A stretch of DNA of 64,000 nt from Siphonodentalium dalli (lineage: Eukaryota; Mollusca; Scaphopoda; Gadilida; Siphonodentaliidae), in the NCBI GenBank assembly GCA_032622095.1, contig CP136066.1, positions 186,222,716 through 186,286,715 on the forward strand, given 5' to 3'. The notes under the pieces are model-generated. The model searched no databases. It had not been told where the DNA came from and worked only from the letters and a program-made list of their open reading frames with translations. Below, in pieces: positions 2,701 through 59,965 of this stretch. Numbering within the stretch: the stretch's first letter is position 1; each line of letters opens with the position of its first letter. Both the position numbers and the translations under genes were made by a program.

Positions 2701-4395
2701 GGTGCATGCAGTGTAGTCGATTATATTATAGTGTCAGAGAAATATCTATCGGACGTGTCCTATTTCTGTGTCAAAAATCCAAATGAATTTTCAGATCACA
2801 GCCAACTTGCTGTTCACTTAGAATATTTTCAAGAGAGTAGTAATTGTGATAACATGTTTATATATGAATATACTGTACCGAAATATTCATTGAAATGGAC
2901 TAAAGATAGTGCAAACAAGGCAATAATGACTGTTAACAGCAAATGTTTCCAAGACGAATTATCGAGGTTAAGAGTATCGCGTTATGAAGAAACCGCAAAT
3001 GACACAGAAAAAGCTGTAACTGACTTTACGGAACTTCTTAAAAGATTGAATAAGTCGGCATCCAAAACTGTAAAGAATGGTAAAATTAAGCAATATAAAA
3101 AACGTAGGTGGTTTAATGATAAGTGTAAAACACTAAAATGCATAATGCAAAAAGCTGTGCGCGAAATGAGAGAGCAGCCGCTGAACAAAAGTTTAATTGA
3201 AAAATTTTGCGCAGCCAAAAAAGCATATAAAAGGGAAACTAAATATAGAGCTAAATTATTCCGACACAAATTTGCAATAGAACTTGAAAACATGGAAACG
3301 TCAGATCCGAGTGAATACTGGAAGTTTATTAAAAAAATGAGAGATGATAGTAGGAAAGATAACGACGATCTTGATCCAGACATTAGTGTTAAATTCTTTA
3401 ATGATTTATATTGCAATAGCGCTAATCGGGATAAAGATACTTTTATATGTAAAACAGACAAACCTAAGATCATTTGCGATCTCAATAATGATGAAATTTC
3501 GACCCTGGAAGTAATAGGCGTTCTGAAGAGTTTGAAAAATAATAAATCTCCAGGCAGTGACGGGCTGCGGAATGAACTATTGAAAGCCGTCGGACCGATT
3601 ATGGCACAAGATTTAACAAAGTTGTTTAATTTGGTTCTGAACTCTTCATATTATCCTACATGTTGGAGCGAGTCCACACTGACACCTATCTATAAAAAAG
3701 GTGATCGTCACGATCCAAACAATTATAGAGCTATAGCTTTGAGCAGTTCTATAAGTAAAATATTTAACAAAATAATCAATACACGAATTTCCAAATTTTT
3801 GGATGATAATGATATTATAAGTGATAATCAATATGGATTTAGAAAAAATAGAAGCACGATTGATAGTGCGTTCATTTTAAAATCGCTAACTACTAAGTAC
3901 CTGAAAGAGGCAAAACCTCTATATGCAGTATTTGTAGACTTCCGTAAGGCATTTGATACTGTCCACCGAGAGACAATGTTTACTAAATTGAAACATGTTG
4001 GTATCAATGGCAATATTATGAAAACTATTGAATCTATGTATGCGTCAAGTGCTTATTCGGTACGAACTAGCCAAGGTTATGGGCCTCATATGATTTCAAA
4101 TATTGGCGTTAGACAAGGATGTATTATTTCTCCCACAATTTTCAAAATATTTATTGATGACATTAGCGCCGAATTTGATGATTCGTGCAAACCGGTTAAA
4201 GTTGGCGAAAAATCTCTAAGTCATATGCTATTTGCAGATGATCTGGTTATGCTATCTGAAACTGCTGAAGGTATGCAAAGATGTTTGAATAAATTGGAGA
4301 ATTACAGCATAAGGAACAAAGTAGAAGTGAATCTTCAGAAAACTAAATGCCTGATATTCAGGAAACGAGCAACAAAAAAAACTAACTGCCTTTAA
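2701..4395 (+). pseudogene. LINE reverse transcriptase domain
   Basis: After the end of the endonuclease (SDHSQLAVH) comes a basic linker and then a complete reverse transcriptase palm and fingers: YRAIALSSSISKIFNKI, QYGFRKNRSTIDSA, AVFVDFRKAFDTVHRE (first catalytic Asp), GVRQGCIISPTIFKIF and HMLFADDLVML (the Asp-Asp pair). All catalytic residues are intact. The frame stops at 4395 just after a run of eight A at about 4373-4381, where a one-base change moves the remaining coding region into another frame. Confidence 0.93.
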
Positions 4396-7465: not shown

Positions 7466-7527
7466 ATGGGTCATTCCAACATTTGGAACTCGCACTTGAG
7501 AAAATTCGGCCCTGGGTCACGATATTG
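7466..7527 (+). CDS. RPS29: RPS29 exon 1 (ribosomal protein S29 / uS14)
   Basis: The exon encodes MGHSNIWNSHLRKFGPGSRY plus the first two bases of a Cys codon, then a GTAATA donor. It joins in frame to the exon at 28946 to give 56 residues, the usual length of eukaryotic uS14. uS14 is a small zinc protein of the 40S head. The intron position, inside the codon of the first zinc Cys, matches the position I recall for the vertebrate gene. A TOP leader and good start context support this as the real first exon. Oddities are Leu11 where Pro is usual and Pro16 where Gln is usual; sequence error, divergence or a decayed duplicate exon could explain them. No other candidate first exon was found in the intron. 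Confidence 0.87.
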
Positions 7528-7991
7528 GTAATATATCATTAAAAGTTATATTTTTAATCATATGAGCCTTTATATGTTCGAAGGCAGTCAACTAAAGTGA
7601 AAATTTAGCTTTTCTTTCGCGTTCTAAAAGCCATGAAATCTGAGCAAGTCTTTCCCACGTGTAAAATTGCAATCACCCAAGTTCGCGGTCAGAACAGGTT
7701 TTGGCGTATGTGCACAATGCACATCTCAATGTGCACATCTGACTTGCGTTATATAGTGCGATTTGTGCAAATCGAGTTATACATTTTTGGGATTACCTGC
7801 ATAACAGATTATTGTCAAAACCTATCCTTGGACAATAATCTTTGTTATCAGGTCTGGGTGAACCTGAAATGGAGCTACTAGTACTATAGGCTATAGCCAG
7901 AAGTAGCTATTATTGCTACCGGTATCACCGCGGTCATGACCGGGGTATCACCCCGTTTTTCTGGTCAATTACTTTGAGAATAGTGGTATGT

Positions 7992-15300: not shown

Positions 15301-15434
15301 ATCACAGTTTAGTCAGCTGAGTGTGGTTATCTTCTCTTCAGCGTTACGACTGTGTAATATTAACAGCCTTGACTTTCTGGTTTACAGTGATCTTCGTCCT
15401 GGAGATTTACTGTGGCCTCATTAAGGCTAGCATT
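15301..15434 (+). ncRNA. H/ACA box snoRNA, copy 1
   Basis: The fold is hairpin-hinge-hairpin-tail. Hairpin 1 has lower stem CACAGT/ACTGTG, pocket AGTCA and GTTACG, and upper stem GCTGA/TCAGC. The hinge contains ATATTA, fitting ANANNA. Hairpin 2 has lower stem AGCCTT/AAGGCT and upper stem ACAGTGATCT/AGATTTACTGT. Pocket 1 pairs with the conserved 28S sequence GTAAC-UA-TGACT: GTTAC and AGTCA directly flank the upper stem and leave U-A unpaired, with about 14 bases to the H box, the classic geometry. This predicts pseudouridylation of the U after GTAAC. The tail shows AGC where ACA is expected, the weakest point. Pocket 2 target unknown. Confidence 0.72.
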
Positions 15435-17343
15435 TCTGAGAGTTGGTCAAAACTTATATAGTTCTGATCATAGTTATTGAAATGTACAAATACTTGTGTT
15501 AGTCAAGTGACAAATTTTGAATGGGTATTTCCATGCAAATATTCGTAAATCTCCATAGCATAGGTTATATATGAAGCAGTTGTCTGAGAACTGAAGTAGC
15601 CATATCTTTAAAAAGACATAACATTTAACTGGCCATTGGTAAATTGCCAATTGTTGCTATACATTTATTTTTGAGAATTTTTTTCTGGAATTGCCAGACT
15701 TGACCTAGTTTGGAAAAATCAATATCAAATTCCAAAATAAATACATAAACTTTCTAATGGAACAAATTCCAAACCATCCAACCAGATAAATATGTATTGT
15801 TTCCAATACCACACAAAGTCACAGCAAGACATATTTGCAACTCTTTTTACTTTTTGCGGAGGAGATTTCCATGAAAATGTCCATTCAAAATTTGTCTCAT
15901 TTGACATCCTCCTTAATTTTCCCTGCATTGTGGGGATGCATGCAGATTATAAAGGATATATTTGATTCTTTTATCAGCTCTAATTAAAGCAGGGAACTTG
16001 AAAGCAGACACGTATATAATAATTTAGGTTCTTATAAAGGTCTGGGATTTCAAGGTATAAAACAGTAAAAATTTCATGAGGAAGTCAGGCTTTATATTTC
16101 TATTTATTTTTCAAATATTCTGAAACTTCAAATTAAAGCAATTTGTTTGCAATTTCAGAATGTGCTCAGTATTACTTTTTCAACTGGTGCCTCAATTTTT
16201 GTCATGAAGCTGTTTTCAGGTGATAGGGGGTGTCAGAATTATTTTGGGGATGACTCCCAACTTTTGTTGTCTCCTTGACATTTGTGTAATGAACTTGGAT
16301 TTATACTCTAGACAGGTTTTCATGGCAATCAGGGTTACATTCTTGAATCATACAGTGGGACATTCCTTGTATGTCTCAAACATATTAAGATCAGAAATGT
16401 TCTTTTAAAAACAAATTGTTGCTATTTTGAAGTTTGATGTCAAATTGTCAACAATTTTAGAACAATCCAACACTCTGAATTGTTTAGGCAATGTCAATCA
16501 CCTTCTAAACGGACAGGCCGGAACAACAGTTTGAAAGTTTAAATATTTGTATTTGAGAGAAAAATAAATATAATTTAGTTAGAAGCCGTCTGTTGTTACA
16601 ATGCATCATCTATTATCAGAGTATCTGTCTCCAAATATAATGCCTTAAAAAAATATCAGTGTTTCTGCTATTAAACAGGATGGGACTCCTCCAGGGGTAG
16701 GTAGGTGGGGAACTTTTTTTTTTGGACAGATGTCACATTCCACATAAATCATGTCTGCCATATTATGATTTAAAGTAACAGAACTGCTAACTGATTGTAT
16801 TCCTGATTTCCTTGATATTTAAATTCCCAGTACTGACCTTTAATATAATTTAGTGGTCCAAGGTCAGTCAGTCGTTGGAATTGTCAACTAATTTGTTCAT
16901 TCATCACATTTTTTCCCCACAATTTGGTTTCCGACCAGCCCATATTTAAATTTTCACCATGGGGGATATCCCAGCACCCATGGTGCAACCTCTATATAAT
17001 ACAGTAAAAAGTTCATGTGAAAGTAAGGCTTTATATTTCTATTTATTTTTCAAATATTCTGAAACTAAGAATGTGAGACCTACTAAGTATATGCAAATTT
17101 AACTGTAAACAACTTGGGTTATTTTGGGTTAAGTTTTTTTTTGCAATAGAAATCTAGACCCAAGAGATATTACAAAACAGAGACACATCTTCATGTACTT
17201 GTTATGTTTCTGTAACAGATAAAAACAAAATTATGACACAAAATTATGACAGTCATTATCGGACATGGGTCGGTCTCTTTACCAGAAAAATACATTTCTC
17301 TAGGCCTAAGTAATGGTTTTCAAAGATATTGTACATGTAAATA

Positions 17344-17425
17344 GGTTGGCAATGATGCTCATATTTTTCGTCTCATGAAAGTTGTATCACTGCAAAACAT
17401 GTTGATAAAACTAACTGAGCCAACC
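17344..17425 (+). ncRNA. 82-nt C/D box snoRNA, copy 1
   Basis: A perfect 7-bp terminal stem (GGTTGGC with GCCAACC) brackets a C-box-like ATGATGC and a canonical D box CTGA. An internal TTGATAA may be C'. TATTTTTCGTC, followed after two bases by a D'-like ATGA, complements the conserved 18S sequence GACGAAAAATA over 11 bases. With D' at ATGA, the +5 rule points at the C of GACGAAAA, a 2'-O-methylated position that other eukaryotes serve through U14. The C box ends in C or T rather than A. Intact copies: 26343-26424 and 28172-28253. Confidence 0.7.
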
Positions 17426-17634
17426 ATTTAATAAATAATAACCCTAATAGGCCATAATTTAAACATTCTGTGTTCTGAGGCAACTCCCCCCGTCACTGAA
17501 ATTTTCTTTTAAAAAGCCTTGTCTAATATTTTCTCAATAATTACTGTTTGAAATATTTGACTTGGAACAAGAAAATTGATTGTTTTTTGTTTTGTTTCTG
17601 GAGTATGTTTTCCAGAGAACAAAGTTAACCCTTT

Positions 17635-17796
17635 GAGTGCCAGGGGCCGATCTCATCGGTCCTAAACCTACAAAATAAGTCAGTTAAAGAATATAACAAT
17701 AAATTATTATTTGGTCGACTCGCATATATAAGAGAATGCATTGGCACAGGGTATATGGGTTGATACAAAAATCGACCTGGCACTCAAAGGGTTTAA
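17635..17796. mobile_element. Short TTAA MITE ending CCCTTTGAGTGCC
   Basis: Begins TTAACCCTTTGAGTGCCAGG and ends with the complement CCTGGCACTCAAAGGGTTTAA split by TTAA. The interior carries half of the ATATATAAGAGAATGCATTG palindrome found in the EPRS-intron elements at 52152 and 60038, so the families are related. piggyBac-like by TTAA-CCC ends. Confidence 0.78.
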
Positions 17797-18954
17797 TAGC
17801 CTCCCTTCCCTCCCTCATCTCAAAATTTTTATTATTTTTCATTCAAATTAGTGCATTTTGAAATCTGTTTTGTTTCCATTAATGGATCCTTTCTAGTGTC
17901 AACTTCTGCAACTCTTAAAGATACGGGCAGCGTTGGCGGTGGGTATGCTGTTAAAATATTCACCTCCGTCAAAAACCGCCTTAAACAGAAAGAATAGTAA
18001 AATATAGACAGACTTTGTTCTTGTACCATTCAGAAATATGGCATAAACAGCATGTTATTGTCAAATGTTTTTCTTCGTTTTGTAAACAAAAGCAAAAACT
18101 TTTGTTTAGATCCGGATATGGTAAACATAAAGAGCATTGACGACAATATACTATTTACGCGCTGAATATGTTTGGCATATGAACAAAACTATATATATTT
18201 TAATATTCATTCTGTTGATGGCGATTTGAACAAATGTGAATAATTCTGCAACGAACGCCGCCCGTGCCTTTAATATATCTTGAAACTTGGGCATAGATCA
18301 TTGGATTTGGTTGTGCTTTGGTGTGTTTATAACCTTCCTCCCTCATCTCAAAATTATATTATTTTTCATTCAAATTATTGCACTGTTGAAATATGTTTTG
18401 TTTCTATAAATGATCCTTTCTTGTGTCAACTTCTGCAACTCTTAAAATATCTTGAAACTTTGGCATGGTGGGTACATTGGATTTGGTGTGTTGATAGTCG
18501 GGTTTAGGGGGGGGGGGGGGAGGATACCCATTTCTTGGATTTAGAATTTTTTTGTTTTTTCCATCGATAAAATTATTTAGTATTGCCCACTCTCCAAACT
18601 GAGTGTCTGGGCATATGCCACGCTTTGTGTAGTACTTGATTATTTCTATTTCTATCTTTCCTAATTTCGAGGGCTGCTATAATAATGCCCTAAATAACGA
18701 CTCCTTAACCACAGCAGAATTATGGATAATTTTTCAGGATTAGTCTGATTTAGTCGGAAATATATCTTGTTGCCATTCATCGGAAAGCTCTCACTGAGAG
18801 GTATGACATGAAAATATTTCTCAAATAAAAAATTATTTAGACAGTTTGAAGCAAAGATGGGATTCAGTGGTTCCCAAAATTTTTCATTTCTTGAGTGTCT
18901 TTTATTTACTTTGGAATGGTAGTAAAGTTCATCAAATACATCTACTTTGCGTGT

Positions 18955-19066
18955 GGTCTCAGTGATGACAATTTAGATGACGAATCTGAGCTTAAATTGT
19001 GTTTTAGCAGTCTTTGTTATTCACATCGAGTTTAATGATGCATCCGAGGCATTTGTCTGAGAGACC
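18955..19066 (+). ncRNA. SNORD15: U15-like C/D box snoRNA, copy 1
   Basis: A 112-nt unit closed by the 6-bp stem GGTCTC/GAGACC holds C box GTGATGA, D' box CTGA, a C'-like AATGATG and D box CTGA. Upstream of D is CGAGGCATTTG, complementary to 28S CAAATGCCTCG; upstream of D' is TTAGATGACGA, complementary to the adjoining TCGTCATCTAA. Vertebrate U15 has the same GAGGCATTTGTCTGAGA end and a similar GATGACGA-TCTGA element (from memory). The +5 rule puts the D-box target on the last A of CAAA. Vertebrate U15 sits in RPS3 introns; here it is in RPS29. Four further copies lie at 20138, 21371, 21899 and 24842. Confidence 0.85.
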
Positions 19067-19138
19067 ATTGCATGTTGTCACATCAAAGTCAAGCAAATTC
19101 ATTACAGTTGATAATAGTGGCTACTGTACAATTAAATT

Positions 19139-19690
19139 AGTAATACTTGTTTATAGTAATGGTCTGTCTGTCTGTCCGTGCGTCCGTCCCGAATTTGTAA
19201 GAGTCATAACTTGAACAAATGTAAACGGATTTCAAAGATTTGTGGTAAATGAGTTCACCTGACCATTACCTAGAATGAATTCGCAAGCCAGGTCTGGCCA
19301 GATATTGTTACCGGAGTTATTGGACTTTGTTTATTATTTTTGTGAATTTACCAAATAGCAAATAGACGACGTCACAGGGCTCATTTCCACAAATCTCAAC
19401 GGATTTCAAAGATATTTGGTATGAGTTCACTTGACCAGTATCTAGAACGAGTTCGCAAACTAGGTTCGGTCGGATATTTTAAGCGGACTTAATGGACTTT
19501 GTTTATTTTTGTGTGCATATGGACGACTTCACAGGGCTCATTTCCACAAATGTCAGTACCTAAAATGAGTTTGCAAGCCAGGCTTTTTGACAAAATCCCA
19601 CCTCTTGTTTAGCACATACTGAGAACGCAAATATTATTGAGAATGCACTTCCACAACTGCACAATTCGGCGGGGGATACCGTCGTCTTGC
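19139..19690 (-). mobile_element. Pearl/HINE-like element, copy in module B1
   Basis: The order is a GTCTGTCTGTCCGTGCGTCC microsatellite, then about 2.5 tandem units of roughly 180 bp (AACGGATTTCAAAGAT, AGAACGAGTTCGCAA, GGACTTTGTTTAT), then GGCGGGGGATACCG. The terminal hairpin present in its sister at 20339 has been lost here. Orientation is inferred from the microsatellite lying 3' of the core in pearl elements. Confidence 0.65.
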
Positions 19691-20137
19691 GACTGCTTGT
19701 TTTTCATTCAAATAGGTACAAGATGTAAAGGATGAGTATGTACAGTTTTCTGGTCCCTCCCCAGGATTTTGCATATACATGCGTATTCCAATTAATGTAG
19801 ATGTAAAAAGTAGTTCAATTAATAGGCTCATTCAGGAGTCTCTCAAAAATGTTGACACTATGCGTCTATACAGTAAAGCCCTGAGTAATCGACCCCTTAA
19901 GCACAGCCGAATTATGGGCAACTTTTCAGGATTTAGTCGGAAATATGGCTTGTTGCCATTCATCGGAAAGCTCTCCCTGAGAGGCATGACATGAAAATAT
20001 TTCTCAAATAGAAAATTATTTAGACAGTTTGAAGCAAAGATGGGATTCAGTGGTTCCCAAAAATGTTCATTTCTTGAGTGTCTTTGATTTACTTTTGAAT
20101 GGTAGTAAAGTTCATAAAATACATCTACTTTGCGTGT

Positions 20138-20249
20138 GGTCTCAGTGATGACAATTTAGATGACGAATCTGAGCTTAAATTGTGTTTTAGCAGTCTTTGT
20201 TATTCACATCGAGTTTAATGATGCATCCGAGGCATTTGTCTGAGAGACC
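20138..20249 (+). ncRNA. SNORD15: U15-like C/D box snoRNA, copy 2
   Basis: Identical in layout to the copy at 18955, with terminal stem GGTCTC/GAGACC, C box GTGATGA, both CTGA boxes and both 28S guides intact. Confidence 0.84.
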
Positions 20250-20338
20250 ATTGCATGTTGTCACATCAAAGTCAAGCAAATTCATTAAACTACAGTTAAT
20301 AGTGGCTACTGTACAATTAAATTAGTAATACTCGTTTA

Positions 20339-20920
20339 TTATCCCCCGCCAAATTAAAAATTTGCGGGGGATCTAGTAATGGGTTCCGTTTCGTCTCTGT
20401 CCTGTCCGTCCGTCTGTCCGTGCGTCCATCCCGAATTTGTAAGTCATAACTTGAACAAATGTAAACGGATTTAAAAGATTTGTGGTATATGAGTTCACCT
20501 GACCATTACCTAGAATGAGTTCGCAAGCCAGGTCTGGCCAGATATTTTTACCGGAGTTATTGGACTTGGTTTATTATTTTTTTCGAATTTACCAAATAGC
20601 AAATAGGGCTCATTTCCACAAATCTCAACGGATTTCAAAGATATTTGGTATGAGTTCACTTGACCAGTATCTAGAACGAGTTCGCAAACTAGGTCCGGCT
20701 GGATATTTTAAGCGGACTTATTGGACTTTGTTTATTTTTGTGTGCAAATGGACGACGTCACAGGGCTCATTTCCACAAATGTCAGTACCTAAAATGAGTT
20801 CGCAAGCCAGGCTTTTTGACAAAATCCCACCTCTTGTTTAGCACATACTGAGACAGCAAACATTATTGAGAATGTACTTCCACAACTGCACAATGCGGCG
20901 GGGGATACCGTCTTGCGACT
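20339..20920 (-). mobile_element. Pearl/HINE-like element, copy in module B2
   Basis: Begins with the hairpin ATCCCCCGCCAAATTAAAAA then TTTGCGGGGGAT, followed by a GTCCGTCCGTCTGTCCGTGC microsatellite, two to three units of about 180 bp, and GGCGGGGGATACCG at the far end. It is at the same module position as 19139-19690. Hairpin, ACGG-type microsatellite and tandem core match the bivalve pearl architecture. Confidence 0.7.
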
Positions 20921-21370
20921 GCTTGTTTGTCATCCAAATACAATGTAGGTGCAAGATGTAAAGGATGAGTATGTACAGTTTTCTTGTCCCTCCCCAGGAT
21001 TTTGCATATACATGCGTATTCCAATTAATGTAGATGTAAAAAGTAGTTCTATTAATAGGCTCATTCTGGAGTCTCTCAAACATGTTGACACTATGCGTCT
21101 ATACAGTAAAGCCCTGAGTAATCGACCCCTTAAGCACAGCCGAATTATGGGCAACTTTTCAGGATTTAGTCGGAAATATGGCTTGTTGCCATTCATCGGA
21201 AAGCTCTCCCTGAGAGGCATGACATGAAAATATTTCTCAAATAGAAAATTATTTAGACAGTTTGAAGCAAAGATGGGATTCAGTGGTTCCCAAAAATGTT
21301 CATTTCTTGAGTGTCTTTGATTTACTTTTGAATGGTAGTAAAGTTCATAAAATACATCTACTTTGCGTGT

Positions 21371-21482
21371 GGTCTCCGTGATGACAATTTAGATGACGAA
21401 TCTGAGCTTAAATTGTGTTTTAGCAGTCTTTGTTATTCACATCGAGTTTAATGATGCATCCGAGGCATTTGTCTGAGAGATC
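21371..21482 (+). ncRNA. SNORD15: U15-like C/D box snoRNA, copy 3
   Basis: Same unit. The base before GTGATGA is C instead of A, and the terminal stem is GGTCTC/GAGATC (one G-U pair). Boxes and guides are intact. Confidence 0.82.
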
Positions 21483-21898
21483 ATTGCATGTTGTCACATC
21501 AAAGTCGAGCAAATTCATTAAACTACAGCTGATAATAGTGGCTACTGTACAATTAAATTAGTAATACTCGTTTATTTTTCATCCAAAGAGGTGCAAGATG
21601 TAAACTCTCCAGGATCCCTCTCCAGGATTTTGCATATACATGCGTATTCCAATTAATGTAGATGTAAAAAGTAGTTCTATTAATAGGCTCATTCAGGAGT
21701 CTCTAAAAAATGTTGACACTATGCGTCTATACAGTAATGCCCTGAGTAATCTACCCCTTAACCACAGCAGAATTATGGGTAACTTTTCAGGATTTAGTCG
21801 GAAATATGGCTTGTTCCCAAAAAATTTCATTTCTTGAGTTTTTTTTTATTTACTTTTGAATGGTAGTAAAGTTCATAAAATACATCTACTTTGCGTGT

Positions 21899-22010
21899 GG
21901 TCTCAGTGATGACAATTTAGATGACGAATCTGAGCTTAAATTGTGTTTTAGCAGTCTTTGTTATTCACATCGAGTTTAATGATGCATCCGAGGCATTTGT
22001 CTGAGAGATC
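21899..22010 (+). ncRNA. SNORD15: U15-like C/D box snoRNA, copy 4
   Basis: Same unit with stem GGTCTC/GAGATC and intact C, D', D boxes and guides. It sits in a shortened module only about 530 bp after copy 3. Confidence 0.82.
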
Positions 22011-22260
22011 ATTGCATGTTGTCACATCAAAGTCGAGCAAATTCATTAAACTACAGCTGATAATAGTGGCTACTGTACAATTAAATTAGTAATACTCGTT
22101 TATTTTTCATCCAAATAGGTGCAAGATGTAAACTCTCCAGGATCCCTCTCCAGGATTTTGCATATACATGCGTATTCCAATTAATGTAGATGTAAAAAGT
22201 AGTTCTATTAATAGGCTCATTCAGGAGTCTCTAAAAAATGTTGACACTATGCGTCGATAC

Positions 22261-22431
22261 AGTAATGCCCTGAGTAATCGACCCCTTAACCACAGCAGAA
22301 TTATGGGTAACCTTTCAGGATTTAGTCGGAAATATGGCTTGTTGCCATTCACCGGAAAGCTCTCACTGAGAGCTTTCCGATGAACGGCAACAAGCCATAT
22401 TTCCGACTAAATCCTGAAAAGTTACCCATAA
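22261..22431. mobile_element. Interrupted CAGTAATGCCC MITE (left part)
   Basis: The palindromic MITE starts here and continues at 23710-23757 (TAATTCTGTTGTGGTTAAGG to GGGCATAACTGTA). The two parts were separated by the element at 22432-23709. Confidence 0.82.
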
Positions 22432-23709
22432 GGCCTAAAAAAAAAAGACGTTTGTTTCAGCTAACCCGACCGACCCTCTTTTAAACCCCCGGCCCTAAAC
22501 TTTTTATTGCCATTGCAAAACAAAAAACAAAAAAAATTATTTAAATTTTTTTTTCTTTCAATTTAGCTCCCAATTCATATCATAACAAGATGCAAAACAT
22601 TTATATATATTGACACAAGAAATTTAAGTTTACAAAAAGATTTAAGTTTAACAGTTGGAATCATACTGTAAAGTATGTTTGGCTTTATCTAGCTTTCATC
22701 TGTGAAAACTTCAAATAGTTTCAGTTCAGGTTTGTTATCCTTCAGACTTCAGTATTTCAATCAAATACAGTACAGGAACATTAACAATTTGATCGAATCA
22801 ACCTGGTTATCAGATTGGATCTCATAATACCAAATGAATAATTCATATAGAGATTAGTACTATAAATAGTAATTACTAACTTAATAGACATTGTTTCTGT
22901 ACTACATATAGTATATTATGTATGTGTCTTATTTGAATTTTATAAAATAGCCAATTATATGAATTCAGAGTGATAATGGCAAGTCTCATTTCAAACAGGA
23001 TAAGCATAATCCATTGAACCAAAAGATATCTGACAATAACTTATAAGCATTTCCAATCCATACATATATAACAAATTTCCAAAGTTATGCTTGAGAAACT
23101 TGATCAAATTGACCTCTCAGCAAAATTCAAAATAATGACTCAAAGCGCCCTAGATTAGCTCTAAATGCAATGGATTTTCAAATTTTTTCCAGGGGGAGAA
23201 CCCCCACCATCAGCAGGGGGTCATCCCTCCCAAACCGTCCTCCGCTCAGGCCTTCAGGTTATGCCTTCGGCATATCAATGCCCAAAATCAGGTGTCCCCA
23301 AAAAATACCTAGATCCTTTACTGAATGGGAGGAGAAGGTAGTGTTGTGAAGCCATCATTAAGAGATCGGTACAAGATGGTCACTCCAATATGTGTACAGT
23401 GCAGTGGTGCTGGACTGACTCCAGTTGTCGCCAGACCATATGGGAAATATTAGGATTATCAAAGACTATATTAGTATATAGACTGGTATATATGTAAAAT
23501 ATTAAAGCATATGTAAGATTGAATTGGAGTTTCTAGTTCCTCTGTCATTGGGGTTAACCTGATTGGGGCTAAGAAGTGCATAGTTTGGGTTATTGACAAG
23601 TATTATACAATTATTTTTAAAGATACTGAAAAAAAAAAGTTAAGCCTACCTGCCTACCCTAATTTTTTTCAGCTCGTTAGCGGAAACAAATGTATTTTTT
23701 TGTTGGGCC
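22432..23709. mobile_element. PIF/Harbinger-like non-autonomous element (1.28 kb)
   Basis: It splits the palindromic MITE and is flanked by a direct TAA duplication (22429-22431 and 23710-23712). The ends are inverted repeats of about 40 bases: GGCCTAAAAAAAAAAGACGT then TTGTTTCAGCTAAC at the left, and the complement of GGCCCAACAAAAAAATACAT then TTGTTTCCGCTAAC at the right. A three-base TWA target and GGCC ends fit PIF/Harbinger. No transposase frame is present. Confidence 0.82.
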
Positions 23710-23839
23710 TAATTCTGTTGTGGTTAAGGGGTCGATTACTTGGGGCATAACTGTACATGACATCTGAGCTATCCAGATTGAATATAAAACAATTCACCAT
23801 TCAGTTCAGACTTGGTGAAGTTGAAAATGAATGAATACA

Positions 23840-23973
23840 ATCACAGTTTAGTCAGCTGAGTGTGGTTATCTTCTCTTCAGCGTTACGACTGTGGAATATG
23901 AACGGCCTTGACTTTCTGGTTTACAGTGATCTTCGTCCTGGAGATTTACTGTGGCCTCATTAAGGCTAGCATT
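23840..23973 (+). ncRNA. H/ACA box snoRNA, copy 2
   Basis: Same two hairpins and pocket 1 (AGTCA, GTTACG) as at 15301. The hinge reads GAATATGAAC, which still contains an ANANNA match (ATATGA). Confidence 0.7.
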
Positions 23974-24340
23974 TCTGAGAGTTGGTTAAAACTTATATAG
24001 TTCTGATCATAGTTTTTGAAATGTACAAATACTTGTGTTTAACTTTCCCTGCATCGTTGGTGATGCATACAGATTATAAAGTGCTGGATATATTTTATTC
24101 TTATCAGCTCTTATTAAATCAGGCAACTTGATATATAATATACTATATAATAATTTAGGTTAATATAAATTTCTGGGATTTCAAGGTATATTACAGTAAA
24201 AATTTCATGAGAAATTAAGGCTTTATATTTCTATCTATTTTTCAAATATTCTAAGACTGAGAATGTGAGACCTATATTCAAATTGAACTGTTCGCAACTT
24301 GGGTTAATTTGGGTGACCAGTTTTTTTGCAATAGAAATCT

Positions 24341-24450
24341 CAGCCCTCAAAATTAGCAGAAATATCCTACAGCAAAATTAATGCTGTGGCATATTAGATT
24401 CAACATGTTCCCACGGCATTGCTTATTGCCATGGCCAATTTTGAGGGCTG
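24341..24450. mobile_element. hAT-like MITE with an empty-site counterpart
   Basis: Ends CAGCCCTCAAAATTAGC and GGCCAATTTTGAGGGCTG are inverted repeats around an internal ATGCTGTGGCAT / GGCATTGC hairpin. It is flanked by the direct repeat AAATCT. Module A copy 1 has the unoccupied site (ATAGAAATCTAGACC near 17148), while copies near 26030-26136 and 27846-27972 are filled. CAG..CTG ends suggest hAT; the visible duplication is 6 rather than 8 bases. Confidence 0.75.
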
Positions 24451-24611
24451 AAATCTAGAGGTATTACAAAAAAAATAATAAAAACATGTCCACAAAAATA
24501 TTATAAATCCATCAGCACAATATTATGAGTGCGGTTTCGGACATGGGTCGGTTGGTTTAGCAGAAACAGTTTTTTTTAGGCTAATTAACTATTCAAAAGA
24601 CATTCTAAATA

Positions 24612-24668
24612 GGTTGGCAATGGTGTTCATATTTTTCATCTCATGAAAGTTGTATCATTGCAAAACAT
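24612..24668 (+). pseudogene. 82-nt C/D snoRNA, truncated copy 2
   Basis: The 5' stem GGTTGGC is present but the C box reads ATGGTG and the 18S guide TATTTTTCATC carries a substitution. The 3' third, including D box and closing strand, is lost at the recombination junction. Not expected to be stable. Confidence 0.8.
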
Positions 24669-25217
24669 CGGAAAGCTCTCACTGAGAGGCATGACATGAA
24701 AATATTTCTCAAATAGAAACTTATTTAGACAGTTTGAAGCAAAGATGGGATTCAGTGGTTCCCAAATTTTTCATTTCTTGAGTGTCTTTTATTTACTTTG
24801 GAATGGTAGTAAAGTTCATCAAATACATCTACTTTGTGTGTGGTCTCAGTGATGACAATTTAGATGACGAATCTGAGCTTAAATTGTGTTTTAGCAGTCT
24901 TTGTTATTCACATCGAGTTTAATGATGCATCCGAGGCATTTGTCTGAGAGACCATTGCATGTTGTCACATCAAAGTCAAGCAAATTCATTAAACTACAGT
25001 TGATAATAGTGGCTACTGTACAATTAAATTAGTAAAACTCGTTTATTTTTTATCCAAATAGGTGCAAGATGTAAAGGATGAGTATGTACAGTTTTCTGGT
25101 CCATCTCCCAGGATTTTGCATATACATGCGTATTCCAATTAATGTAGACGTAAAAAGTAGTTCTATTAATAGACTCATTCAGGAGTCTCTCAAACATGTT
25201 GACACTATGCGTCTATA
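24669..25217 (+). repeat. snoRNA module B, copy 5
   Basis: Same segment as the 18.7-22.4 kb array, starting CGGAAAGCTCTCACTGAGAG and running into the intact palindromic MITE at 25218. Confidence 0.85.
24842..24953 (+). ncRNA. SNORD15: U15-like C/D box snoRNA, copy 5
   Basis: Complete copy with stem GGTCTC/GAGACC, C box GTGATGA, D' and D boxes CTGA and both 28S guides. It is separated from the other four by the Harbinger-like insertion and a module A copy. Confidence 0.84.
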
Positions 25218-25427
25218 CAGTAACGCCCCGAGTAATCCACCCCTTAACCACAGCAGAATTATGGGTAACTTTTCAGGATTTAGTCTGAAATATGGCTTGT
25301 TGCCATTCATCGGAAAGCTACCGCTGAGTGCTCTCCGATGAATGGCAACAAGCCATATTTCCGACTAAATCCTGAAAAGTTACCCATAATTCTGCTGTTA
25401 AGGAGTCGATTACTTTAGGCATTACTG
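25218..25427. mobile_element. Intact palindromic MITE, CAGTAATGCCC family
   Basis: About 210 bases from CAGTAACGCCCC to GGCATTACTG, flanked by TA. The two halves (GGGTAACTTTTCAGGATTTA and its complement, GGCTTGTTGCCATTCATCGG and its complement) pair along the full length around a short loop near 25322. Confidence 0.9.
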
Positions 25428-25528
25428 TACAATACGTCTGAGCTATCCAGATTGAATATAAACAGAATTCACCATTCAGTTCAGACTTGGTGAAGTTGTC
25501 ATCCGGAAACTGAAAATGAATGAATACA

Positions 25529-25662
25529 ATCACAGTTTAGTCAGCTGAGTTTGGTTATCCTCTCTTCAGCGTTACGACTGTGGAATATAAACAGCCTTGA
25601 CTTTCTGGTTTACAGTGATCTTCGTCCTGGAGATTTACTGTGACCTCATTAAGGCTAGCATT
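25529..25662 (+). ncRNA. H/ACA box snoRNA, copy 3
   Basis: Hairpins and pocket 1 are conserved; the hinge is GAATATAAAC (ATATAA fits ANANNA). One change in hairpin 2 pocket (GACCTCATT for GGCCTCATT). Confidence 0.7.
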
Positions 25663-26342
25663 TCTGAGAGTTGGTTAAAACTTATATAGTTCTGATCATA
25701 GTTTTTGAAATGTACAAATACTTGTGTTTAACTTTCCCTGCATCGTTTGATGCATACAGATTATAAAGTGCTGGATATATTTTATTCTTATCAGCTCTTA
25801 TTAAATCAGGCAACTTGATATATAATATACTATATAATTATTTAGGTTAATATAAATTTCTGGGATTTCAAGGTATATTACAGTAAAAATTTCATGAGAA
25901 ATTAAGGCTTTATATTTCTATCTATTTTTCAAATATTCTAAAACAAAAAATGTGAGACCTGAATTCAAATTGAACTGTTCGCAACTTGGGTTATTTTGGG
26001 TGACCAGTTTTTTTGCAATAGAAATCTCGGCTCCTCAAAACATTTGGAGAAATATCCTACAGCAAAATTAATGCTGTGGCATATTAGATTCAACATGTTC
26101 CCACGGCATTGCTTATTGCCATGGCCAATTTTGAGGGCTGAAATCTAGAGGTATTACAAAATTTTGTCATATTGGCTTATTAATATGAAGAAAAAAAAAC
26201 AATAATAAAAACATGTACACAAAACATATATTTATATCATCAGCACAATATTACGAGTCTGCGGCTTTGGACATGGGTCGGTTGGTTTAACAGAAACAGA
26301 GTTTTTGTTAGGCTCAGTAACTATTCAAAAGCATTCTAAATA

Positions 26343-26424
26343 GGTTGGCAATGATGTTCATATTTTTCGTCTCATGAAAGTTGTATCATTGCAAAACATG
26401 TTGATAAAACAAACTGAGCCAACC
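26343..26424 (+). ncRNA. 82-nt C/D box snoRNA, copy 3
   Basis: Terminal stem GGTTGGC/GCCAACC, C-box-like ATGATGT, 18S guide TATTTTTCGTC and D box CTGA are all intact. Confidence 0.7.
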
Positions 26425-27097
26425 ATGCTCAGGCCATAAACTAAATTTCCGTGCGCTCAGTAACCTCCATCGTCACTGAAATTTTCTTTTAAAAAGCCTT
26501 GTCAAACATTTTCAATATGAACTGTTAGAAATATTGGATTTGAACAAGGAAATTGATTGTTTTTTTGTTTGTTTCGGGAGTATGTTTTCGAGAGAGAACA
26601 AATTAACAGCCTCCCTCCCTCGTCTCAAATTGAGATCTAATTGCCTGAAAACAGATATTTTATTTTGATGGCCTTATTAACAAATGTTATAGAAGTATAA
26701 AAAAAATAGCAGAATACATATATTTGTCATTCAAATTAGTGCACATGGCCAAGGATCATCAGATTTATTTGTGCTTTGATATGATAGCCCAGCATGCGGT
26801 AAAGGATACCCACATACTACGGTAAAGGATGCCCACATACTACGGTAAAGGATGCCCACATACTACGGGTTTCGTACATTCATTTTTACCAGAGTTACAG
26901 CCCTTGTGAATTTTGTATCCATATGAAAATTTCAGCTTGTAACTTGGGCATGGATCATTGGATTTGGTTGTGCTTTCCCAGTTTAGGGGCGAAAAGATAC
27001 CCACTTCTTGGATTTAGAAAAAAAATATTTTTCCATTCATACAAATATATAGTATTGCCCAGTAATTCCCACTCTCTAGACTGAGTGTCGGGGCATA

Positions 27098-27276
27098 CAG
27101 TAATGCCCTAAATAATCGACTCCTTAACCACAGCAGAATTATGGGTAATTTTTCAGGATTTAGTCGGAAATATGGATTGTTGCCATTTATTGGAAAGCTC
27201 TCACTGACTAAAATTTCCTGAAAAATTACCCATAATTCTGCTGTGGTTAAGGAGTTGATTATTTAGGGCATTACTG
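27098..27276. mobile_element. Palindromic MITE, CAGTAATGCCC family
   Basis: Starts CAGTAATGCCCTAAATAATC and ends ATTATTTAGGGCATTACTG, flanked by TA. The internal loop part is shorter than in the 25218 copy. Confidence 0.88.
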
Positions 27277-27373
27277 TATGCCATGCTATGTGTAGTTCTT
27301 ATTTCTATCTTTCCTAATTTTGAGGGCTGCTGTATGAGAAACGACGCATTGTTTCTATGGGATAAGGAATACA

Positions 27374-27507
27374 ATCACAGTTTAGTCAGCTGAGTGTCGT
27401 TATCTTCTCTTCAGCGTTACGACTGTGTAATATTAACAGCCTTGACTTTTTGGTTTACAGTGATCTTCGTCCTGGAGATTTACTGTGGCCTCATTAAGGC
27501 TAGCATT
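27374..27507 (+). ncRNA. H/ACA box snoRNA, copy 4
   Basis: Same two-hairpin fold, hinge TAATATTAACA as in copy 1, and intact pocket 1 against 28S GTAAC-UA-TGACT. Confidence 0.71.
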
Positions 27508-28171
27508 TCTGAGAGTTGGTCGAAACTTATATAGTTCTGATCATAGTTTTTTAAATGTACAAATACTTGTGTTTAACTTTCCCTGCATCGTTTGATGCAT
27601 ACAGATTATAAAGCGCTGGATATTTTGTATTACCAGGGAACTTAAAAGCAGACGCGTCTTATAATAATTTAGGTTCTTAATATCAAGGTCTGGGATTTCA
27701 AGGTATATTACAGTAAAAATTTCATGAGAAAGTCGGGCTTTATATTTCTATTTATTTTTAAATATTCTGAAACTGAGAATGTGAGACCTACTAGTAGATG
27801 CACTTTACAGTTCACAACTTGGGTGAACAGTTTTTTTGCAATAGAAATCTCGGCCCTCAAAATTAGGAGAAATATCCTACAGTAAACTTAATGCTGTGGC
27901 ATATTAGATTCCACATGATGCCATGGCATTTTCCATGGCATTGCTTGTTGCAGTGGCCAATTTTGAGGGCTGAAATCTAGACCAAGAGGTGTTACAAAAT
28001 AGTCACAAATTCTTATAGGCTTCTTAATATACGTTTCTGCATGAAAAATATAAATATTTGTTTAAAATCAGCACAAAATTATGAGTCGACATTTTCGGAC
28101 ATGGGTCGTTTGGTTTAGCAGAAACAGAGTTTTTTTAGGCTATGTAACTGTATTCAAAGACGTTGTAAATT

Positions 28172-28253
28172 GGTTGGCAATGATGTTAATATTTTTCGTC
28201 TCATGAAAGTTGTATCACTGCAAAATATGTTGATAAAACAAACTGAGCCAACC
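28172..28253 (+). ncRNA. 82-nt C/D box snoRNA, copy 4
   Basis: Terminal stem, C-box-like ATGATGT, guide TATTTTTCGTC (preceded by TAA instead of TCA) and D box CTGA are intact. This is the copy nearest the RPS29 exon 2 acceptor. Confidence 0.7.
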
Positions 28254-28945
28254 ATGCTCCAGCCATAAGCTAAAAGTTCTCTGTTCTCTGGAACCTCCCT
28301 CGTCACTGAAATTTTCTTTTAAAAAGCCTTGTCAAACATTTTATCAATATTTACTGTTAGAAATATTGGATTTCATCAATGAAAATGGATTGTTTTTTTT
28401 TCTTCTGTTGAGTATGTTTTCCAGAGAAAAAAATAAATAGCCTCCCTCCCTCATCTCAAAATTGATCTAATAGCTTTGACAATGGATCCTTTCTAGTGTC
28501 AACTTCTGCAACTCTTACTATACCACCCACCCCATAAATTTGGGCATGGATCATCAAATTCAGTTGTGCGTGTGTATGGTCATAGCCCAGCATGTGGTAA
28601 ATGTGTTTCGTGCATTTCATACCAGAGTTAGAGCCCTTGTTGACTTCGGAATTTATGGAAATTTCAGCTTGCAACTTGTGCATGAATCATCGGATTTGGT
28701 TGAGCTTTTGTGTGTTGATATCCCAGTTTAAATGAAAGGATACCCACTTCTTGGATTTAAAAAAACCAAATTTTCATCCATGCAAATATTTAGTATTGCC
28801 CACCCTCAAGACTTGTTTTGTTTGTTTCCGCGTAAAATGATAAGATTCTGAGAATATTGCCTATTTATTTTGTTGTGAGAATTATTTCCTGTGATTTCTG
28901 AGAACACGAGTTACTATTATTGATGCAAATTATTGTTTCTTACAG

Positions 28946-29045
28946 CCGAGTCTGCTCAAACACTCATGGTCTTATCAGGAAATACGGACTAAACATCTGC
29001 AGAAGATGCTTCAGAGAGTACGCTGATGATATCGGATTTAAAAAA
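28946..29045 (+). CDS. RPS29: RPS29 exon 2
   Basis: Completes the Cys codon split by intron 1 and encodes [15 protein letters not shown], then [18 protein letters not shown], with a GTGAGT donor. The two Cys-x2-Cys pairs (residues 21/24 and 39/42 of the spliced protein) form the uS14 zinc site, and the Ile-Arg-Lys-Tyr-Gly-Leu core contacts 18S rRNA in the 40S head. The acceptor is TTGTTTCTTACAG. No frame disruption is visible. Confidence 0.96.
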
Positions 29046-29672: not shown

Positions 29673-29681
29673 CTCGACTGA
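29673..29681 (+). CDS. RPS29: RPS29 exon 3 (last two codons and stop)
   Basis: After ATCATTTCAG the bases CTC GAC TGA give Leu-Asp-stop, the canonical C-terminus of uS14 (KLD). The tiny coding part of a final exon matches the vertebrate gene structure. The 3' UTR runs about 100 bases. Confidence 0.95.
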   Translation, partial: LD

Positions 29682-58836: not shown

Positions 58837-59965
58837 GTCCCCCGACTCGAGTGGTAAACTTCATGATTGGAATTGTTAGAAGGATACTATTTGCAACAAT
58901 GTTATACAGTATATAGATGTTGCAAACCACCGCAAAATTTCTTGGACAAAACAACCCGATGAACAAACGCATGCAAACGCGAAAAAATGATATTTTTGTA
59001 TTAGCTATATAGATGTTGCATATCACCAACATGTTAGGAACAATATCCCAAAGTTTCAAATCTCTACATTTAAAACTGTAGGTGGAGTTGATTACACCAT
59101 GAAGGTACCCAATCTCATCCAAAAGGCAAAAATGTTCCAAATTTTCTAAGTCGAAAACCCCCCAAAAATATGGAAAAAATGATATTTTTGATTAGCTATA
59201 TAGATGTTGCAAATCACCAACATGTTAGGAACAATATCCCAGAGTTTCAAATCTCTACATTTAAAACTGTAGGAGGAGTTGATTACACCATGAAGGTACC
59301 CAATCTCATCCAAAAGGCAAAAATGTTCCAAATTTTCTAAGTCGAAAACCCCCCCCAAAAATATGGAAAAAATGATATTTTTGATTAGCTATATAGATGT
59401 TGCAAATCACCAACATGTTAGGAACAATATCCCAGAGTTTCAAATCTCTACATTTAAAACTGTAGGAGGAGTTGATTACACCATGAAGGTACCCAATCTC
59501 ATCCAAAAGGCAAAAATGTTCCAAATTTTCTAAGTCGGAAACCCCCCCAAAAATATGGAAAAATTTATATTTTTGATTAGCTATATAGATGTTGCAAATC
59601 ACCAACATGTTAGGAACAATATCCCAGAGTTTCAAATCTCTACATTTAAAACTGTAGGTGGAGTTGATTACACCATGAAGGTACCCAATCTCATCCAAAA
59701 GGCAAAAATGTTCCAAATTTTCTAAGTCGAAAACCCCCCAAAAATATGGAAAAAATGATATTTTTGATTAGCTATATAGATGTTGCAAATCACCAACATG
59801 TTAGGAACAATATCCCAGAGTTTCAAATCTCTACATTTAAAACTGTAGGAGGAGTTGATTACACCATGAAGGTACCCAATCTCGGACGCACGGACACACG
59901 GACGCACGGACGCACGGACGGACGAGGGTCATTTCTATAGTCCTCCGACGGAAACGTCGGGGGAC
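58837..59965 (+). mobile_element. Pearl/HINE-like element with five ~190-bp units
   Basis: Begins GTCCCCCGAC and ends GTCGGGGGAC. It contains five tandem units (starts near 58989, 59180, 59377, 59568, 59756) sharing TTAGCTATATAGATGTTGCA, AATCACCAACATGTTAGGAA, CATTTAAAACTGTAGG and CACCATGAAGGTACCCAATC. An ACGGACGCACGG microsatellite (59884-59920) and the hairpin TCCTCCGACGGAAACGTCGG follow. Central tandem core plus ACGG microsatellite is the bivalve pearl pattern. The minus-strand frames here are repeat artefacts. Confidence 0.85.

Follow-up and report, generated by a model that had tools for sequence, protein, structure and literature searches.

A predicted multi-copy locus of H/ACA and box C/D small nucleolar RNAs in the first intron of the ribosomal-protein gene RPS29 of Siphonodentalium dalli

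Intron 1 of the ribosomal-protein gene RPS29 of the scaphopod mollusc Siphonodentalium dalli is predicted from its sequence to be a multi-copy intronic locus of small nucleolar RNAs (snoRNAs), a reading to which we assign a probability of about 0.86. The gene lies in a 64,000-nt stretch (the window; contig C6, CP136066.1, positions 186222716–186286715) of a 2.23 Gb genome assembled in nine contigs (GCA_032622095.1), and its intron 1 contains four U19/SNORA74-like H/ACA units, five U15/SNORD15-like box C/D units, and three intact and one truncated copies of an 82-nt box C/D RNA. Window positions 4000–34000 (30 kb) were scanned on both strands with the Rfam covariance models using cmscan, at E-values up to 10. 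The matches are more than chance would give, with E from 1.2e-9 to 1.3e-8 for SNORA74 and from 0.0019 to 0.0059 for SNORD15. All units are on the plus strand, that is, the strand of the host gene, and boxes and guides are intact in all 12 non-truncated ones. The encoded RNAs are probably functional.

The units belong to two modules, module A (a U19-like RNA and, further downstream, the 82-nt RNA; copies M1–M4) and module B (a U15-like RNA; copies B1–B5), which follow each other in the intron in the order M1, B1–B4, M2, B5, M3, M4. The coordinates within the window, together with those of the RPS29 coding exons, are:

7466–7527, + strand, first RPS29 coding exon, from the start ATG to the 5′ splice site (tblastn; GT at 7528)
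15301–15490, + strand, U19/SNORA74-like H/ACA RNA, copy M1 (45.4 bits, E 1.3e-8; pockets, boxes)
17344–17425, + strand, 82-nt box C/D RNA, copy M1 (snoZ223, 26.4 bits, E 0.45; boxes, 7-bp terminal stem)
18955–19066, + strand, U15/SNORD15-like C/D RNA, copy B1 (31.5 bits; boxes, two guides)
20138–20249, + strand, U15/SNORD15-like, copy B2 (31.5 bits; boxes, guides)
21371–21482, + strand, U15/SNORD15-like, copy B3 (30.1 bits; boxes, guides)
21899–22010, + strand, U15/SNORD15-like, copy B4 (32.1 bits; boxes, guides)
23840–24029, + strand, U19/SNORA74-like, copy M2 (47.8 bits; pockets, boxes)
24612–24668, + strand, truncated 82-nt C/D RNA, copy M2 (fused to the B5 module, with loss of its 3′ part)
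24842–24953, + strand, U15/SNORD15-like, copy B5 (31.5 bits; boxes, guides)
25529–25718, + strand, U19/SNORA74-like, copy M3 (49.0 bits, E 1.2e-9; fold z –4.99)
26343–26424, + strand, 82-nt box C/D RNA, copy M3 (boxes, stem)
27374–27563, + strand, U19/SNORA74-like, copy M4 (46.3 bits; pockets, boxes)
28172–28253, + strand, 82-nt box C/D RNA, copy M4 (snoZ223, 27.3 bits; its end is 692 nt 5′ of the 3′ splice site)
28946–29045, + strand, second RPS29 coding exon (tblastn; AG at 28944–28945, end set by eye at GTGAGT)
29673–29681, last RPS29 coding exon (read by eye)

The first two exons were found with tblastn, while exon ends and the last exon were set by eye. The product matches the Pfam family Ribosomal_S14/S29e (PF00253, E 2.9e-12), and the only two RPS29 exon matches in the genome are both at the window locus. 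The exons sum to 171 bases and the GT..AG intron 1 (7528–28945) is 21,418 nt long, as stated by the preliminary description of this DNA, which had reported a 171-base coding sequence with a 21.4 kb first intron. It had also proposed three guide-RNA families with the unit counts given above, and both are recovered by cmscan and box search (4/4 H/ACA, 5/5 U15-like, three intact plus one broken 82-nt); the outermost positions it gave, 15301 and 28253, are the start of the first U19 and the end of the last 82-nt match. Out of the lengths it gave, 112, 82 and about 134 nt, the second holds for the 82-nt RNA and the first is the exact stem-to-stem length of the U15-like unit and not of the H/ACA RNA, which, being 190 nt long, fits none of the three. 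The comparison with Rfam covariance models suggested there yields the families, all of them below the gathering cut-offs.

The U19 assignment is based on a full-length SNORA74 (RF00090) match of the 190-nt unit in all four copies, with 45.4–49.0 bits and a gathering cut-off of 71 bits. As the E-values do not exceed 1.3e-8 but the scores stay under the cut-off, we regard these RNAs as divergent relatives rather than members of the curated family. The pocket pieces AGTCA, CGTTAC, GAGAGTT and ATAGTT are present in the four window copies and in one more copy on contig C2, and a 28S fragment of the same genome (L010), which reads GTAACTATGACTCTC, holds their complements in the expected order, on either side of the two expected uridines. 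In all four window copies the H box begins 14 nt downstream of the first base of GTTAC and the ACA box 15 nt downstream of that of TAGTT; the H box conforms to ANANNA, and the ACA box is near the 3′ end, with 2 nt after it within the cmscan boundaries of the unit. The fold of copy M3 is better than that of 200 out of 200 shuffles (z –4.99). In 28S, the four RNAs would direct the formation of two pseudouridines, within AACUAUGACUCUC. We take human 28S positions 3741 and 3743 to be equivalent to yeast 2258 and 2260. The RPS29 copies share with U19/SNORA74 the model match over the full length, both guide pockets, the H and ACA boxes and the 28S target stretch, and differ from it in score and in being present in four copies in a single RPS29 intron. 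Human U19 targets 28S 3741 and 3743, and its host gene is MATR3 (PMC6466398).

The 112-nt U15-like unit matches SNORD15 (RF00067) in five out of five copies with 30.1–32.1 bits, the gathering cut-off being 75 bits. The boxes C, D′, C′ and D and the guides GATGACGA and GAGGCATTTG are intact in the five window copies and in a copy on contig C5, and so are the C/D′ and C′/D box pairs with the guides GAUGACGA and GAGGCAUUUG. Both targets are found exactly in another 28S fragment of the same genome (L011), and neither exactly in L010. The 28S targets of U19 and U15 are separated by about 40 nt at most, and the five U15-like RNAs would guide 2′-O-methylation just downstream of the U19 target, in CCAAAUGCCUCGUCAUC. 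Similar to SNORD15, the units have all four boxes and both 28S guides; unlike it, they are shorter, score 30–32 vs 75 bits, and are hosted by RPS29 in five copies per intron. Chicken U15 also resides in a ribosomal-protein gene, namely, in three introns of RPS3 (PMC2653536).

The 82-nt RNA has an AUGAUG C box, a CUGA D box and a 7-bp GGUUGGC/GCCAACC terminal stem in three of its four copies, the fourth being truncated. Its guide TATTTTTCGTC forms 11 contiguous pairs with GACGAAAAATA in an 18S fragment of the same genome (L008), and pairing of at least 11 nt is seen in four out of 500 dinucleotide shuffles of this 603-nt fragment. The fifth base before the AUGA D′-like box faces, according to the box+5 rule applied by eye, 18S C517, a numbering that we presume and that agrees with T514/C517 of the SNORD56 literature. 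This RNA probably fits best a guide for 18S C517, a SNORD56-like target, an assignment weaker than those of U19 and U15; in the same, weaker sense the three intact copies would guide 18S Cm517. The best whole-length Rfam match is to the plant family snoZ223, at 17344–17425 and 28172–28253 (26–27 bits, E 0.27–0.45; 27.3 bits in copy M4, with a cut-off of 45), whereas the SNORD56 match extends only over positions 8–26 of the model (14.3 bits, E 1.8, with a cut-off of 36). Complementarity to the C517 site and a partial model match are common with SNORD56, and the score and the better whole-length fit of snoZ223 set the 82-nt RNA apart. SNORD56 is the known guide for this position (T514/C517; PMC5612246). 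SNORD103 was considered as the identity of the 82-nt RNA and rejected: the box context is common, but the guides differ from those of a SNORD103-like pair on C5.

To characterize constraint, substitutions inside the RNAs were compared with those in the duplicated flanks, which for U19 and the 82-nt RNA are mainly the flanks aligned by BLAST; the pairs of copies are not independent. The 82-nt copies and the older U19 copies are less diverged in the RNA than in the flanks. For the 82-nt RNA this is seen in all three pairs: M1–M3 (3/82 inside vs 27/181 in the flank, P 0.0063), M1–M4 (4/82 vs 46/281, P 0.0061) and M3–M4 (3/82 vs 51/368, P 0.0079). For U19, P is below 0.05 in three pairs out of six: M1–M2 (5/190 vs 23/206, P 0.0013), M1–M3 (7/190 vs 26/210, P 0.0017) and M2–M4 (8/190 vs 35/393, P 0.043). 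The U15 units weakly show the same trend, with 10/1120 substitutions inside and 65/1617 in the flanks over ten pooled pairs of window copies. No indels are observed inside the RNA in the six U19, three 82-nt and ten U15 window pairs, while the flanks have 3–15 indels in each U19 pair, 8–18 in each 82-nt pair and a total of 23 in the ten U15 pairs. The preliminary description had held that boxes and guides are kept while flanks vary; the former is true for all 12 intact units, and the latter for all 82-nt pairs and half of the U19 pairs, being weak for U15.

Its suggestion that two modules were duplicated separately and then interleaved is supported, one of the 82-nt copies being cut by the junction between M2 and B5. 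The M2 module breaks off within its 82-nt RNA and passes into a B module. The letters CAT are shared at the join, and the inner end of a palindromic element present there as a half-copy is approximately 20 nt away. The 57 nt left of the truncated RNA differ from M3 in one base of box C and one of the guide. Identity between modules ranges from 79 to 99%, with private insertions; modules M2 and M3 share 97% identity over an alignment of 653 nt, and B2 and B3, 98.8% over 481 nt. As the module flanks are common to the copies, the intron copies are segmental duplicates. They arose by duplication of modules A and B within the intron, as the shared flanks show. The modules became interleaved through a join that, at the one junction for which this is shown, falls inside the half-copy of the palindromic dispersed element.

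Related copies elsewhere in the genome are few. Every candidate was scored in the U15 and 82-nt searches, and 40 of 1822 candidates in the U19 search, so that more distant U19 copies could escape. Among these 40, one further U19-like copy was found on C2 (L003:4835-5021; 88.7% identical to those of the window, its first stem being shortened). It is located between two exon pieces of the mitochondrial HSP70 gene HSPA9, the downstream one matching Stress-70 mitochondrial (E 2.4e-12) and the upstream one matching DnaK models weakly (E 0.011), and the homology covers the U19 RNA only, stopping almost exactly at its ends. In the part of the genome open to the search, no 82-nt copies were found outside RPS29 intron 1, all four scored candidates being those in the intron. 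A single further U15 copy, on C5, is 95% identical and has homologous flanks; another piece homologous to C5 reaches window position 25524, stopping 5 nt short of U19 M3, and on C5 it is not followed by a U19. The C5 copy is part of a C/D cluster of approximately 12 kb on one strand (L004:9595 to L005:1744, C5:158251694-158263794), which includes matches to SNORD16 (44.2 bits, cut-off 45) and SNORD14 (51.1 and 48.8 bits, cut-off 64), two SNORD103-like units, SNORD15, and snR78-like and Z221-like units, none above cut-off. Perhaps, this cluster is a UHG-like host gene. A tblastn search of 49,951 bases there with RPS3, RPS13, HSC70, RPS8, RPL7A, RPL13A, RPS12, RPS11, RPL5, RACK1 and RPS29 queries gave nothing convincing. 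Module B is homologous to a part of the C5 cluster, from which U15 would have been transferred to RPS29.

A number of observations weigh against the prediction of a snoRNA locus. At the curated gathering cut-offs the Rfam scan of the window gives no matches. For the 82-nt RNA, copy M3 (26343) is absent from the cmscan list at E ≤ 10, copy M4 has 33 weak Rfam matches listed, nearly all of them to C/D families, its D′-like box is AUGA and no clear C′ box is found. RNAalifold on five close U19 sequences reports compensatory changes in none of 62 pairs (covariation term +0.72). The ribosomal RNA fragments compared (28S and 18S) are partial assembly copies, with no full 18S, and may not be active ribosomal DNA; L010 differs at one base in the U15 target stretch, and GACGAAAAATAAC is present in four of the five fetched 18S copies and missing from the fifth. 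The HSPA9-intron copy is missed by cmscan at E ≤ 1, folds better than 194 out of 200 shuffles (z –2.02), and has its H box shifted to 12 from 14 nt, with ACA at 15. Three U19 pairs do not reach P 0.05, M1–M4 (5/190 vs 13/178, P 0.052), M3–M4 (10/190 vs 36/392, P 0.14) and M2–M3 (5/190 vs 11/440, P 1), and out of the comparisons of B1–B5 with the C5 copy (P 0.086, 0.14, 0.30, 0.18 and 0.02) one is below 0.05, each with one indel inside the RNA.

In an alternative reading the intron holds mostly decaying duplicates, with one functional copy per family and the rest being young pseudogenes, intact-looking because they are recent. The 97% identical M2 and M3 modules, equally diverged inside and outside U19, agree with it, and so does the already broken 82-nt copy; on the other hand, U19 M1 compared to M2 and M3 and the three 82-nt pairs are less diverged and free of indels inside the RNAs, and guides and boxes are intact in all non-truncated units. 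We consider this explanation unlikely, if worth keeping in view; for the surviving copies it is compatible with a multi-copy snoRNA locus.

Alternatively, the units could be snoRNA retroposons carried by mobile elements, the copy number reflecting transposition rather than selection. Palindromic and other dispersed repeats are indeed interspersed with the modules, and the abrupt ends of U19 homology in the HSPA9 copy agree with this origin, but outside the intron the searches found just one U19-like copy (among 40 scored candidates), one U15 and no 82-nt copies, and the intron copies have module flanks in common, so we hold this origin to be very improbable. We attach even less credence to misassembly of a repetitive intron that inflated or reduced the unit count: errors are common in tandem arrays and B2 is almost identical to B3, yet the module pairs cover a wide range of identity and bear private insertions.

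The 12 intact units total 1,566 nt, or 7.3% of the intron, and in its first 7.8 kb cmscan lists no snoRNA match at E up to 10; a tRNA scan of the window found none. The spacers at 15502–15700, 28271–28465, 25215–25429 and about 28044–28144 are dispersed repeats. The preliminary description had offered the RNAs as the explanation of the 21.4 kb intron and as the function of its repeat debris. The former is not supported: as the RNAs constitute such a small fraction of the intron and several spacers are dispersed repeats, the intron size reflects repeats and module duplication more than RNA, and most of the debris is given no function. Two spacers considered as a fourth RNA family turned out to be dispersed repeats and were rejected, the patch at 28067–28133 with its copies (out of 40 matches listed, 36 are outside RPS29 intron 1) and 28271–28465. 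Half-copies or fragments of the palindromic element sit upstream of U15 units, one of them at the A/B fusion. The full copy is:

25215–25429, + strand, palindromic element of a dispersed family

Near-perfect palindromic elements are observed at 25215–25429, 22257–22431 and 27095–27282, the first one being dispersed genome-wide. The block at 27570–27845 is nearly confined to RPS29 intron 1, with five intron copies including itself and one weak match elsewhere; the partial copies are at approximately 15913–16127, 16995–17119, 24039–24340 and 25728–26027, a core of 50–100 nt is conserved (about 90% when M4 is compared with the others), and no convincing snoRNA boxes are seen in it by eye. In a comparison of the C5 locus with the window, five matches of approximately 100 nt, spaced by about 190 nt, fall at 59008–59874, probably a tandem array.

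By general snoRNA biology, splicing of the RPS29 pre-mRNA after its transcription would free the 21.4 kb intron, which would then be debranched or cut and trimmed by exonucleases to ends protected by small nucleolar ribonucleoproteins (snoRNPs), yielding up to twelve snoRNAs. As a likely effect, conserved guides would be supplied at a higher dosage, coupled to the expression of the ribosomal protein. A bolder version, which we find doubtful, is a snoRNA nursery, where RPS29 expression would set the dosage of guides for one stretch of approximately 40 nt in 28S and for 18S C517, and snoRNP roadblocks would yield snoRNA-ended long non-coding RNAs (sno-lncRNAs) with repeat middles.

Much of this has precedents. 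The U19 and U15 families are known, the 82-nt family being less certain, and so are cis-duplicated intronic snoRNAs in ribosomal-protein hosts. Cis-duplication is the main source of chicken snoRNA paralogs (PMC2653536), 27 ribosomal-protein genes host snoRNAs in the fly (PMC2246290), and in sponge ribosomal-protein genes snoRNAs are duplicated in neighbouring introns (PMC3412847). Intronic snoRNA clusters were described first in rice and later in Drosophila (PMC2780460); these, too, have several snoRNAs per host intron. In RPS29, a single animal ribosomal-protein intron holds twelve units that look intact and represent both classes. The excerpts of PMC2246290 and PMC1459141 describe no snoRNAs in RPS29, and among the matches listed from the Creative Commons-licensed PubMed Central literature no report of such a cluster in this gene is found. 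What is unusual is the extent, 12 units of mixed class in one animal intron.

Animal snoRNAs usually occur one per intron, and two in one intron give rise to sno-lncRNAs (PMC11028025). Cis-amplified snoRNAs of mixed class in a single animal ribosomal-protein intron would be an exception to this habit. Since the copies are not equally old and one of them is broken, they can reveal how guide RNAs gain copies and lose them, and could also show whether extra copies alter the modification of ribosomal RNA or make snoRNA-ended long RNAs.

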